This document shows positions 11,412 through 43,224 of a DNA stretch of 64,000 nucleotides, piece by piece. Location: positions 62,001 through 126,000 of the forward strand of contig JAGVUB010000112.1 in the NCBI GenBank assembly GCA_019136515.1. Direction: 5' to 3'. The DNA is from Verrucomicrobiota bacterium. Lineage in GTDB: Bacteria; Verrucomicrobiota; Verrucomicrobiia; Opitutales; Opitutaceae. The number at the start of each line of letters is the position of its first letter. The first letter of the stretch is position 1. Position numbers and translations under genes: made by a program. The notes under the pieces are model-generated. The model was given only the letters and a program-made list of their open reading frames with translations. It did no database searches and was not told where the DNA came from.

Positions 11412-11438
11412 TAAACTTTTTTTGCCCCGATCCGATCA
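11412..11438 (+). promoter_or_regulatory. sigma-28 (FliA)-type promoter of flagellin
   Basis: TAAA (11412-11415), 15 bases, then TCCGATCA (11431-11438). This matches the FliA consensus TAAA-N15-GCCGATAA at TAAA and the CCGAT core. It lies 65 bases before the flagellin start codon. Confidence 0.7.
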
Positions 11439-35778: not shown

Positions 35779-35805
35779 TCAAGTTTCCCGAGCGTTTGCC
35801 GATTA
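35779..35805 (+). promoter_or_regulatory. sigma-28 (FliA)-type promoter of the porin-chemoreceptor operon
   Basis: TCAA (35779-35782), exactly 15 bases, then GCCGATTA (35798-35805). The -10 matches the FliA consensus GCCGATAA in 7 of 8 bases and the -35 in 3 of 4. The start codon is 98 bases further on. Confidence 0.65.
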
Positions 35806-35903
35806 CGCGGTGACAACGTTTTGCCAAAGACGTTCGAGGCTGGCGGTCCAGTGGGTGAAGCAAGGCCCCGTGTCCCCGAATGCATGGCCATCGATCTCGC
35901 ACC

Positions 35904-37199
35904 ATGAACATCCCATCGTCACGTCGTCTTCTCGCACTGCTGGGCCTCATGCCGGCCCTGTCTTCGACCGAGCTCCACGCCATCAACGCCGGAGGCATCG
36001 ACATCCATGGCTCCGTCTCCGTGACCGCCAGCTACTCCGACACCTACAACTACCTTGGCGACACCCGCGATGCCATCGACCTCAACCTCGTCGATGTCGT
36101 CCTTAACGGCAGCCATCGCTTCGAGAGCGGCCTGCGGGCCGGCGCCCAGCTCTACGGCTACACCATCGGTGACTACAGCGACATCACCCTTGACTGGGCA
36201 AACCTCGACTACTCGTTCAACGAGTACTTCGGCGTGCGTCTCGGCCGCAACAAGATCCCCCTCGGTCTCTACAACGACTCGCAGGATCTCGACGCCATCC
36301 GCACCTTCGCGTCGCTCCCCTACCCGGTTTACCCCAAGCCCTATCGCGCCGTCACCGCCTCGATGGACGGCCTGAGCCTCTACGGCACAGTCGGCATCAG
36401 CAAGGCCGGCTCGCTCGACTACCAGCTCTACGGCGGGTGGAAGGAGTCGATCGATGGAGACAATCCCTTCATCGGTGGCATCAACAACCTCGCGCGCTAC
36501 GACAAGTGCGAGTTCAAACGCGGCGTCTTCGGCACGTCCCTGTTCTGGAACACCCCGCTCGAAGGCCTGCGCCTCGGCTACTCCTACCTTGAGACGCCGA
36601 AGAATGTCCTCAACGGCACGATCAGCGTGATCGACGATATGCGTGGCAGCTACCTCGCACTCGCCCGCCAAGTCGATGGGGCCTTCGGTGCGGGGACGTG
36701 GGACCACTCCGGTCTTTTTGCCGGTACCATCGTCACCAGCCGCACCCGCGCCCGCATCAACGTGCTCTCCGCCGAGTACACTCGCGACAAGTGGCTCTTC
36801 GCCGCCGAGTACAAGCGCCGCGACGAGACCGAGGGTGAAATCTACACCCCAGCCATCGCCGCCCTCGGGCTGCCGAGCACCAATCGTTTCGCGAACCATC
36901 TCGAGCAGTACTACGCCATGGTGACCTACCAGGCCACCGACCAAATCGGCCTCGGCGCCTACTACGCCCACGAGAACACCATGCGCAAAGGCTCCAGCGG
37001 CCCGAGCGACCCCTTGACCAAGACCAAGGACTGGGCGGCCGCCGTCAGCTACGCGATCAACGACAACTGGATCCTCAAGCTCGAAGGACACCTCATCGAC
37101 GGACGCTCGCTCGTCTACTCCGGCGGCGACGACAACCGCACCAGCGGCACCGATGCGACTTGGGCCTACCTCGTCGCCAAGGCCACCTTCAGCTTCTGA
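35904..37199 (+). CDS. outer-membrane porin-like protein
   Basis: A 431-residue protein with a signal peptide (about residues 1-27, ending STELHA) followed by alternating beta-strand sequence: GGIDIHGSVSVTASYSDTYN, LRAGAQLYGYTIGDYSDITL, FAAEYKRRDE, and a C-terminus ending in Phe (VAKATFSF) as needed for Bam-mediated insertion. This fits a 16-18-stranded porin. It is the first gene of an operon with a PstS-like binding protein (16-base gap) and a chemoreceptor (28-base gap), behind a sigma-28-type promoter. The solute is unknown. I use the ATG at 35904 because it gives a normal signal peptide. Confidence 0.8.
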   Translation: MNIPSSRRLLALLGLMPALSSTELHAINAGGIDIHGSVSVTASYSDTYNYLGDTRDAIDLNLVDVVLNGSHRFESGLRAGAQLYGYTIGDYSDITLDWANLDYSFNEYFGVRLGRNKIPLGLYNDSQDLDAIRTFASLPYPVYPKPYRAVTASMDGLSLYGTVGISKAGSLDYQLYGGWKESIDGDNPFIGGINNLARYDKCEFKRGVFGTSLFWNTPLEGLRLGYSYLETPKNVLNGTISVIDDMRGSYLALARQVDGAFGAGTWDHSGLFAGTIVTSRTRARINVLSAEYTRDKWLFAAEYKRRDETEGEIYTPAIAALGLPSTNRFANHLEQYYAMVTYQATDQIGLGAYYAHENTMRKGSSGPSDPLTKTKDWAAAVSYAINDNWILKLEGHLIDGRSLVYSGGDDNRTSGTDATWAYLVAKATFSF

Positions 37200-37215
37200 C
37201 CGCCCGAGGCTCCCC

Positions 37216-37638
37216 ATGAAAACCGCATTCCATCTCCTCCTCGCAGCCATCCTCCTCGTCGGCTCCGTCAGCCTCGCCTCCGCCGCCGGCGGCGTCTTCA
37301 TCACGAATCCAACAGGGCCCGACTCGCTGACCAAGGCGGACATCAAGAACATCCTCCTCGGCAACAAGACCAAGTGGGATTCCGGCGGCCTCGTGAAGCT
37401 CGCCGTGCTCAGCCAAGGGCCCGTGCACGAGTCCATAGTACAAGAATACACCGCACGCTCCGCCGACCAGTTCGACAAGTACTGGAAGAAGCAGGTCTTC
37501 ACCGGCAAGGGCAGCTCCCCCGACTCATTCAAGACCGATGCCGAACTGGTCGCTTTTGTCGCGAAGACACCCGGCGCCTTTGGCTACATCGCCGGCGACG
37601 CCAAGCCCGACGGCGTGAAGGTCATCAGCGTGCAGTAG
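37216..37638 (+). CDS. small PstS-like periplasmic substrate-binding protein
   Basis: A 140-residue secreted protein (signal peptide about residues 1-24, [12 protein letters not shown]). The mature part resembles the PBP-like domain of phosphate-binding Pst[36 protein letters not shown], and DGVKVISVQ at the end. At about 115 mature residues it is far shorter than PstS (about 300), so it is one lobe only and no ABC transporter genes adjoin. Sitting between porin and chemoreceptor, it may present a bound ligand to the receptor. A decayed copy lies at 39371-39592. Confidence 0.75.
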
Positions 37639-37666
37639 CCCGCCCTTCCCACAGCTCGCGCCCATC

Positions 37667-39250
37667 ATGAAGAACCAACTCAGCATCCGCACCAAACTCC
37701 TTCTGGGGATGGCCATCCTTGTCGTCGGCTATGTGGCCTCCGCGGGAATGGGATTCTTCGCCGGTGCGCTGCGGGAGAAGGAGCTTGCCGCCATCGGCAC
37801 CGTCAGCGTCCCGATCTCCCTCAAATGTCAGTCCGCCCTGTTCGAATTCGAAGCCGGCGCCAAGGCCTACAACGATGCGCTCATGACGGGCGACCCCGAC
37901 ACGCTCCAAATCGCGACCGCCGAAACAGCCAAGGCGGTCGCCGCACTTGAGCTGATCGGACAATCCGCCGCCACCGCGGGACTTGGCGAGACTGAGATCG
38001 GCACACTCCGCACCCACCTCGCTGCGCTGGAAGGGCTGCGCCGCGAAGTGTTCGCCGGTATGAGTGGCGATGGCGCGGCCCGCGAGGCCACCCGGACCAA
38101 GGCCGAGGCTCTCACCGGCTCCACCGAGAAGGCGCGCCAAGGTCTCATCACGCTCGCCACGACCGCCGCCAGTGTGCTCGACAAGCGCCTCGCCGCCAAC
38201 ACCGCCGCCACACGCCGCCAACGCATGGCCAATCTCTACACTGCCGCACTGGTCATCCTCGCCGGCAGCAGCGTCGTATTTCTTATCATCCAGCGCTCCA
38301 TCGTGCGCCCGATCCGCCGCGTGGCCGCCGGCGTGCACAGCAGCGCCGATCGCGTCGAGTCGGCCTCGAACACCATCCGCGAATCCGGCCGCCAGCTCGC
38401 CGACGGTGCCAGTGCGCAAGCCGCCTCCCTCGAGGAGACCAGCGCCACCCTCGAGGAGATCTCCAGCGTAGCCCGGCGCAATGCCGACCACTCGGCCACC
38501 GCGAAGGAGAAGGTTTCATCCGCCCGCGGCGTCGCCGAGCGTAGCATAGCCGATGTCGGCTCGATGCGTTCCGCCATGGGCGAAATCAAGGCCGCCAGCG
38601 ACAACATCGCCAAGATCGTGAAGGCCATCGACGAGATCGCCTTCCAGACCAACATTCTCGCCCTCAATGCCGCCGTCGAGGCCGCGCGGGCCGGCGAGGC
38701 CGGCGCCGGGTTCGCCGTCGTCGCCGAGGAGGTGCGCAACCTCGCCCAGCGCAGCGCCAAGGCGGCGCAAGAGACCGCCTCGCTCATTGAGGATTCGATC
38801 TCGAAGAGTGAGCGCGGCGTCCAGATCAGCGCCAAAGTCGCCGGCGGGTTGGAGGAGATCGGCCAGCAGATCCGCGAGATCGATACACTCGTGGCCGAGA
38901 TCGCCCAGGCCTCGAAGGAGCAGAGCAACGGCGTCACCGAGGCGAACAAGACCGTCGTCCAGCTCAACGAGATGACCCAAACCAACGCGGCGGCCGCCGA
39001 GGAATCCGCCGCCACGGTCGAGGAGCTCGCCGCGCAGGTCGGCGCCCTCAACGCCTACACCGACGAATTGATTCTCACCGTCCACGGGACCGCTGCGGCC
39101 GCAGCTCCTGCAACACCTTTGCCGGTGGGGACACCGGCGACCTCGGCAGCGAACACCCCCATCATCCCCCCCAAGCCTGCGGCTCCGGCCAAGCCGGTGC
39201 AGGTCGCAACGAAGGGGGACGCCCACGACTCGTTCTTCAAGAACGTCTAG
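37667..39250 (+). CDS. methyl-accepting chemotaxis protein
   Basis: A 527-residue chemoreceptor. Membrane segments at residues about 11-31 and 190-210 flank a periplasmic four-helix-type sensing domain of about 155 residues. A HAMP segment follows ([19 protein letters not shown]), then a cytoplasmic coiled coil whose tip is [20 protein letters not shown], then [17 protein letters not shown] (about residues 321-357), which binds CheA and CheW. The C-terminus is Pro/Ala-rich and ends DSFFKNV rather than a CheR pentapeptide. Third gene of the porin operon. Confidence 0.92.
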
Positions 39251-39370: not shown

Positions 39371-39592
39371 TGAGCCGCCCACGAGGCCGTGATTCAGGAG
39401 TATACCGCCCGCGCCGCCGGTCAGTTCGACAAGTATTGAAAGAAGCAGGTCTTCACCGGCAAGGGCAGCGCTCCCAACGCGCTCCAGACCGATGCCGCGC
39501 TGCTCGCGTTCGTCGCCAAGACACCAGGCGCCTTCGGCTACATCGCCAGCGGCACTGCGCCAAGCGGCGTGAAGGTTGTCGCTGTCCAGCAA
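39371..39592 (+). pseudogene. decayed copy of the small PstS-like gene
   Basis: The plus strand encodes HEAVIQEYTARAAGQFDKY, a stop (TGA at 39437-39439, where the intact gene has TGG for Trp), then [31 protein letters not shown] and GVKVVAVQ. This matches the second half of the protein at 37216-37638 with many substitutions. The N-terminal half and signal peptide are absent. It lies 120 bases after the chemoreceptor, so an ancestral duplication of the binding-protein and receptor unit is likely. Confidence 0.8.
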
Positions 39593-41208: not shown

Positions 41209-43224
41209 TCAGAGGTCGCGGAAGAAGTTGTCCGGGTTGTCGGACTTCCCGCCGGCTTTGGCAGTCTTCGTCGGCGCCGTTGCGCGTGCTGGCGCAGCGG
41301 CTCTCACCGGCGTTTTCGCCGCCGCCGGCACCTTTGCTTTCGCGGCAGGTGCCGCGTGGGACACCGGCACCACCTTGGCCGGGGCGGGTTCGTAGGCGGA
41401 GGGGGCGCTGCTGGCTCCCGCCGGGCCGGCCGCGACTTCTGCATCGGTATGGACCATGCGATTCAACTCGTCGACGGCCGCCCGCAGGCGATCGGCCTGC
41501 GACTGCAGTTCGGCGGACGAGCTGGCCGTCTCCTCGGCGCTGGCCGCGTTGGATTGGGTGATCTGGTCGATGCGGGAAATCTCGGCGTTGATCGTCTCGA
41601 TGCCTTGGCTCTGCTGTTTGGCGGCGTCGGCGATCTCCTGGATCATCGTGTCGAGTTTCCGAGCACGCTGGGTGATCTCGTTGAAGTTGTTACCGACGCG
41701 TTCGCTCAGCCGGATGCCGTGTTCGCTGCGCTGGTTCGAGTTCTCGATCTTCGCCGCGGTCTCCCGGGCGGCCTCGGCACTGCGGTGGGCGAGGTTGCGA
41801 ACCTCCTCGGCCACGACCGCGAACCCGGCCCCGGCCTCGCCCGCACGCGCGGCCTCGACCGCGGCATTGAGTGCGAGGATGTTGGTCTGAAAGGCGATCT
41901 CATCGATGGTCTTGATGATCTTCGTGATCTCGGCGCCGGCCGACTTGATCGAGTCCATCGCCTCCTTCATGGCCTTCATGTCGTCGGAACCGTGGTCGGC
42001 GGCATGGCGAGTCTCGCCCGCCAACTGCCGGGCGTTCTCGGTGTGCTCGGCCGTACGTTTGATCATGCTGCCCATTTCGACGAGCGAGGAACTCGTCTCC
42101 TCGAGCGAGGCGGCCTGCTGGCAGGAGCCGTCGGCCATGGCTTGGCTGGCGGTGCTGACCTGGCGGGAGGCGGCGGCGGTGCTCTCGCTGCCCTCCTTGA
42201 GAACCGCTGCCACATGGGCGATCGGCCGCGTGACGCTGCGCACGATGAAGACGCCGGCGACGATGCCGAAGATGATCCCAACCAGACTCAGCCCGAGCAC
42301 CAGCGACTCGTTGCGCCGCTGGGCCGCCGAGGTCGTCTGTTGGATCTGCTGACGGTTCTTGGCGAAGAGCGCGTTGAGGCTCAGGACCCGGCTGCTGAAA
42401 TCGTCGGCAACCGTCTTCATCTCCACCTGATAGAGCACCTGGCTGCGCGCGACCCCCACGCTGACCTTGGACAAGCCCTGGAGCAGCGCGGCGGCCTCGG
42501 TGTTGGCGGCCTTCAGGGCATTGCGCCGCTCGGGGTCCTTGAAGGTGGCGTCGAACTCCTCCATCTCGGCAATCTCCTTGTCGATCGCCTTGGCGCCCTC
42601 GACGAGCTTGTTGAGCGACTGCGCGGCCGATTCGGCCTGGGTGGAATCGGAGGTGAGCAGAAACTGGTTCACCCGCATGAGTCCCTCGAAGAAATTCTGG
42701 AGCGCCGACGAGGCCTTGAAGGAGGCGCTCATGTCGCCGCTGTCACGTGCCTTCACGAGCACGAGCTGGAGCGATTGCTGGATCGTCTCCGCCGCGGGCC
42801 GCATCGCCGCCTCGAACTGATCGCGCTCGGCGCGCAGCGCCACCATCTCGGAGAATTGCGACTCGAACCGACCGAAAAGCTGCTGCGAGTCGGAGAGCAA
42901 CGCCTTGGCCGCGGGATCGATCTCCCGTTTTTCCATCTCGCTGAACTGCGTGCGCATCTGCCGGCCGAGGGTGGAGAACTGCGCGGCATCCTCCTTCGCA
43001 CCGCTGACCTGGAATGCACTCACCGAACGAAGGAGATCCTTCATCGCCAAGTCCAAGGCATTCGCCTGGGAGGCGATCTCGGCACCTGCGACCGTCTGTT
43101 CGATGGCGCGGCCCGAGCGACCGAGGGCCAGATAGGCGGTCGCCGCGACAATGGCCAGCAAGACGATGACAACGCCCAAGCCGGCGGACATCCGCCGACC
43201 AACGGTGAAGTGAGCACGGTTCAT
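41209..43224 (-). CDS. methyl-accepting chemotaxis protein with a long periplasmic domain
   Basis: A 671-residue chemoreceptor. Membrane segments at residues about 12-32 and 305-326 enclose a periplasmic domain of about 270 residues, predicted all-helical, the size of a helical bimodular (HBM) sensor. HAMP ([20 protein letters not shown]) and the cytoplasmic hairpin with tip [20 protein letters not shown] (about residue 440) follow. The tail is Ala/Pro/Lys-rich and ends DNFFRDL, like the DSFFKNV end of the other receptor here. It starts 28 bases after the stop of a secreted TonB-C protein and is probably cotranscribed with it. Confidence 0.9.

Follow-up and report, generated by a model that had tools for sequence, protein, structure and literature searches.

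The three adjacent genes described here, found in a 64,000-nucleotide stretch of a Verrucomicrobiota genome (hereafter, the window), probably encode a sensory cassette in which an outer-membrane porin and a small secreted protein, related to one lobe of the solute-binding proteins (SBPs) and referred to as mini-PBP, would constitute a front end feeding interchangeable inner-membrane receptors, the small protein having a solute-reporting role. The gene order is conserved, the output protein is exchanged from locus to locus, the mini-PBP is homologous to a single lobe of PstS and has lost its anion-binding motif, and its history is common with that of the receptor ectodomain. Because the unit turns up again in distant bacteria, where other signalling proteins take the place of the chemoreceptor, it would seem to be a widespread sensing front end and not a part of a transporter. 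The chances are about even for the broader proposition that a widespread half binding-protein family, detached from ABC transport and wrongly annotated as part of phosphate transporters, represents together with its dedicated porin a portable sensor front end which, in two or more phyla, has come to serve chemotaxis, two-component and c-di-GMP outputs.

Layout of the unit and its promoter-like box

The operon-like arrangement originally predicted, with gaps of 16 bp between porin and mini-PBP and of 28 bp between mini-PBP and receptor, is indeed present in the form of three same-strand open reading frames (Table 1), an in-frame ATG further upstream, at 35880, offering an alternative start for the porin. 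That the first product is an outer-membrane porin with an N-terminal signal peptide is upheld by the aromatic β-signal ATFSF at its C-terminus, by its kinship with the porins adjoining the mini-PBPs of relatives and by a match to Porin_O_P (PF07396) which, with 17.5 bits, lies below the curated cut-off of 20.9. The third product is clearly a chemoreceptor, namely a transmembrane methyl-accepting chemotaxis protein (MCP) having a periplasmic domain and the conserved signalling hairpin. Its structural model (pLDDT mostly 76–87 over residues 51–170) displays a four-helix ectodomain and was used only to define this helical ectodomain and the receptor class, the long helices also matching unrelated helical proteins in Foldseek; 4HB_MCP_1 is matched by the receptors of three relatives belonging to the units designated type B.

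Table 1. Features of the unit and of its immediate surroundings (positions in the window)
Feature	Coordinates	Strand	Remarks
Sigma-28-type promoter-like box	35779..35805	+	TCAAGTTT-N11-GCCGATTA
Porin	35904..37199	+	431 aa; signal peptide, C-terminal aromatic β-signal, sub-threshold Porin_O_P; related porins at 42/44 loci
Mini-PBP (secreted one-lobe SBP-like protein)	37216..37638	+	140 aa including signal peptide; match to the PstS inserted lobe only
Methyl-accepting chemotaxis receptor	37667..39250	+	527 aa; MCPsignal E 2e-41; Tar/Tsr-type by model and fold search
Receptor periplasmic ligand domain (approximate)	37754..38236	+	predicted four-helix bundle
Pseudogene fragment (3′ half of a second mini-PBP)	39374..39589	+	69–70% aa identity to mini-PBP residues 69–140; in-frame TGA

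The sigma-28-type promoter claimed to precede the operon is confirmed as a sequence. When both strands of the window were searched for promoters of TAAA-N15-GCCGATAA-type, the box ahead of the porin gene was the top match, agreeing at 14 of 16 positions (p 0.005 versus windows from the same region), and its −10 element ends ~98 bp before the porin gene begins; further strong sigma-28-like boxes occur at 11412 (+), 12613 (+) and 34446 (−). The source genome encodes FliA, which scores above the NCBIfam curated cut-off, and one CheA. Boxes of this kind precede the units of the closest relatives; in eight units, namely those of type A plus that of genome G015, they surpass those of windows of equal size from these loci (Fisher p 7e-7). 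Type-B and proteobacterial units mostly have no box or a weak one that is not convincing, so that flagellar control, while likely for the clade formed by type A and G015, would not be general. In the near-complete genome G401, which carries an MCP-type unit, the CheA dimerisation domain (PF02895) was not found.

The degraded copy downstream of the receptor shares 81% DNA identity over 197 bp with the mini-PBP gene. It had been taken to imply a former duplication of the whole unit, an idea not borne out, the duplicated piece being limited to the 3′ half of that gene; remnants of a second porin or receptor accompanying this fragment were looked for and none was found. At the stop codon of the receptor a match of 20 bp was discounted, being the self-overlap of the two query stretches.

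A single lobe of a PstS-type protein

The homology of the mini-PBP family to PstS was established by profile searches and concerns the inserted lobe only. A 21-member mini-PBP profile matches the PstS structures 4exl, 4q8r and 4gd5 with E values from 6e-9 to 2e-8, aligning to approximately residues 77–187 of the 265-residue PstS chain, and PF12849 (PBP_like_2) matches residues 27–126 of the window protein only at profile positions 95–185 of 267, the score of 26 bits being just below the cut-off of 27. The length of the proteins, which ranges from 133 to 163 aa including the signal peptide in all 44 members, leaves no place for the two lobes of PstS. Thus, of the PstS-like protein of 115 mature residues that had been predicted, the relationship stands, if confined to the inserted lobe, and the length does not, the mature product amounting to ~117 residues (~12 kDa) with cleavage after ASA; SBPs are two-lobed proteins of 20–65 kDa (review, PMC9602780). 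An AlphaFold2 model of the mini-PBP made from four sequences was poor (pLDDT 47) and was left out of both fold claims and structure searches, so that the fold is deduced from sequence profiles.

The phosphate loop of PstS, RxDGSGT, comes from the inserted lobe and appears as REDGSGT in the structures 4q8r and 4gd5. This anion-binding loop is kept by no member of the family; the window protein has LSQGPVHES at that site and its relatives have varied sequences, the family possessing instead a conserved pattern of its own, S-x-x-Q-F/L-x-x-x-W ... F-T-G-K-G-x-x-P. The suggestion that phosphate is the ligand was therefore not sustained, nor could a specificity for phosphate be assumed. In fact, whereas PstS has a first lobe, the RxDGSGT motif and an ABC permease, the mini-PBP is without all three, which disfavors the name “phosphate ABC transporter substrate-binding” given by NCBI to the proteins of this family.

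Conservation and common history of the parts

The family sample consists of 44 mini-PBP members found in Verrucomicrobiota and on plasmids of gamma- and betaproteobacteria, the proteobacterial part being drawn by tblastn from plasmid records only (Pseudoalteromonas, Alteromonas, Saccharobesus, Halomonas, Pseudomonas, Photobacterium, Caballeronia, Massilia and others) and the member counts not being independent, as one genome (G005) alone holds four copies. With this proviso, a related porin gene adjoins the mini-PBP gene in 42 members, the exceptions being G013 and Pseudoalteromonas Bsw20308, and a receptor gene does so in 32. The latter encodes an MCP in 23 cases (window included), a hybrid histidine kinase in five (G010, G044, G173, G364 and Photobacterium) and a GGDEF/EAL protein in four (Halomonas, two Caballeronia and Comamonadaceae), while about a quarter of the loci, such as those of Alteromonas, Saccharobesus and G038, have no adjacent receptor. 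The order may be porin–PBP or PBP–porin, and the gaps from porin to mini-PBP span 7–47 bp in the 23 units measured. The co-occurrence of the three genes, whose absence would have spoken against the original prediction, is thus conserved in two phyla.

Within the sampled relatives the distribution is patchy. A match to the small protein at E 0.01 was obtained in 16 of 57, a few of these being ordinary PstS (weak matches of ~280–290 aa were counted as such and excluded from the family), and a phylum-wide profile search found more. The two genomes of the same genus are without the small protein. G001, a genome of this genus that lacks the unit, has other, unrelated genes ahead of carA, which makes the unit an accessory element within the genus. 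Genome G013 (locus L032, 7695–8120) has an orphan mini-PBP gene where G020 (L033) has a complete unit between shared flanking genes, and is apparently a case in which porin and receptor were lost and the mini-PBP retained. Three units lie in tandem in G005 (L035), porin–PBP–MCP twice followed by PBP–porin–porin, from which it appears that the cassette amplifies locally. Its occurrence on plasmids is seen from the MCP–porin–mini-PBP unit of large P. aeruginosa plasmids (L091, i.e., p12939-PER, and L085), one of which comes from a resistance-plasmid lineage. On Alteromonas plasmids (L086, L087) the pair formed by mini-PBP and porin directly adjoins the type IV CRISPR genes csf1, csf2, csf3 and csf5.

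No Pst permease was seen beside any of the 44 mini-PBP genes, nor PstC, PstA or PstB in the immediate vicinity at any locus examined, and the claim that the unit comprises no ABC transporter is upheld also by the source genome, where a complete pstSCAB-phoU set having its own PstS is separate from the cassette. This set lies on another contig (C58) and consists, in order, of a porin-like gene, PstS, two permease-like genes, a PstB-like ATPase and a PhoU-like gene, as named by sequence and order; the pst-linked porin gave no match to the cassette porin profile. Beside these genes (C58 4705–13474, L048) there are a second short PstS-like protein, of 254 aa, and a Pit-like transporter on the other strand.

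The histories of the parts were compared through the pairwise tree distances of 18 complete Verrucomicrobiota units. The correlation was highest between PBP and ectodomain (r 0.93), followed by porin and ectodomain (0.90) and by porin and PBP (0.89); between PBP and signalling domain it was 0.34, a low value due in part to a few long branches and rising to 0.73 without four of the units. Furthermore, types A and B separate in the porin, PBP and ectodomain trees and are not recovered in the signalling-domain tree. Since G005 and G006 each hold both types, the agreement among porin, PBP and ectodomain is not explained by species history. Porin, PBP and receptor have therefore been co-inherited, most closely as regards the ectodomain. 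A strong claim that signalling domains were swapped was dropped, because the AU test on the signalling-domain tree does not reject type-A monophyly (p 0.07); this result and the rise of r are the reasons for claiming co-inheritance and not domain swapping.

Proposed sensory role, alternatives and related systems

The pathway that can be envisaged begins with FliA (sigma-28), which would transcribe the cassette along with the motility regulon. The porin would admit a small solute across the outer membrane, acting as ligand supplier; the mini-PBP would bind this ligand and contact the receptor, a step suggested by the correlated history of PBP and ectodomain, thereby reporting the solute, or the occupancy of the porin, to the four-helix ectodomain, and the chemoreceptor would signal via CheA. 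Porin and mini-PBP would represent the constant part of the device, whereas chemoreceptor, hybrid histidine kinase or c-di-GMP enzyme would be its exchangeable output. The original view that the unit serves sensing rather than transport finds support in the neighbourhood conserved in two phyla, in the interchange of three output classes, in the lack of an adjacent Pst permease and in the separate pstSCAB.

As the usual closure of two lobes upon a ligand is not available to a one-lobe protein, how could the mini-PBP act? A solute might be bound on the protein surface or between the subunits of an oligomer, or else the state of the porin might be relayed, as YfiR does for YfiB. The latter possibility is at the basis of the main rival to the solute-reporting role: the mini-PBP would not bind a solute and would shuttle between porin and receptor as YfiR does between YfiB and YfiN, being sequestered by the outer-membrane protein and switching the inner-membrane protein when free. 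We consider this rather unlikely, even though a Venus-flytrap mechanism is improbable for a one-lobe protein without the anion motif, the most constant link is that between porin and mini-PBP, and GGDEF proteins are found among the outputs, as in YfiBNR. Precedent exists in the published sequestration of YfiR by YfiB in Pseudomonas aeruginosa (PMC4887326). In YfiBNR, outer-membrane, small periplasmic and inner-membrane output protein form one signalling unit, an arrangement that the cassette shares by gene order and predicted locations, GGDEF proteins being the outputs in Halomonas, Caballeronia and Comamonadaceae. However, an OmpA-like lipoprotein is what YfiB represents, YfiR has no relationship to PstS, and a diguanylate cyclase is the sole output; the outer-membrane partner in the cassette is kin to substrate porins, being a barrel and not a peptidoglycan-binding lipoprotein, and neither the OmpA-like domain of YfiB nor the YfiR Pfam domain was found in the proteins of the window or of the relatives scanned.

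The receptor-less loci, the remote Porin_O_P likeness of the porin and the NCBI names, which are those of ABC transporter components, would also suit an uptake accessory made of porin and mini-PBP and serving a transporter encoded elsewhere, the receptors being neighbours because the cell co-regulates taxis toward a nutrient with its uptake. This is quite improbable: normal docking of an SBP would need the missing lobe, a Pst permease stands beside none of the 44 genes, the pstSCAB of the source genome has its own PstS, and the history of the PBP tracks that of the receptor ectodomain. As to a neighbourhood due to chance or gene-cluster drift, with no joint function, the patchy distribution and the two same-genus genomes lacking the small protein could be adduced in its favor, but it is hardly credible in view of the recurrence of the pairing in both Verrucomicrobiota and Pseudomonadota, where receptors of three classes occur and the short gaps are conserved.

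The solute-reporting cassette, preferred here, has close counterparts among the systems of indirect sensing. The pairs Tar–MBP, Trg–GBP/RBP, Tap–DppA and Tsr–LsrB of E. coli resemble it in that a periplasmic binding protein provides an indirect input to a four-helix ectodomain of ~160 residues, and the predicted ectodomain of the cassette receptor is of the class with which those receptors read loaded binding proteins. Unlike the mini-PBP, the E. coli SBPs (MBP, GBP/RBP, DppA, LsrB) consist of two lobes and have a second task in ABC transport, and we know of no porin co-encoded with Tar, Trg, Tap or Tsr. For a PstS-type input to a chemoreceptor the precedent is the phosphate chemotaxis of P. 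aeruginosa, where PstS signals to the ectodomain of CtpL, which does not itself bind the solute (PMC4926252), a role similar to that predicted for the cassette. On the other hand, that PstS is a full two-lobe protein that binds phosphate at 7 nM and the CtpL ectodomain has 286 residues and nine helices (PMC4926252), whereas the mini-PBP has one lobe without the phosphate motif, is encoded together with porin and receptor, and would address a four-helix domain.

The elements of the cassette being of known kinds, their combination is rated as a variant of indirect, binding-protein-assisted sensing. As originally stated, no named system composed of a porin, a one-lobe SBP-like protein and an exchangeable receptor emerged from a literature search that mostly did not cover subscription journals. 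Indirect sensing via SBPs is usually studied with two-lobe proteins common to transporters; a one-lobe, signalling-only protein with its own porin and interchangeable outputs would mean that the periplasmic input is reducible and modular, would link an outer-membrane pore to a definite step of a sensory pathway, and would correct the name of a family present in marine, soil and clinical bacteria.

A minor observation concerns the two chemoreceptors of the window, 41209–43224 (−) and 37667–39250 (+), both of which have a proline/alanine-rich linker followed by a similar aromatic tail (DNFFRDL and DSFFKNV). The receptors of relatives end in DKFFRNT, DDSFWR and similar sequences, and by analogy with the NWETF of E. 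coli these tails may serve as docking sites for adaptation enzymes.
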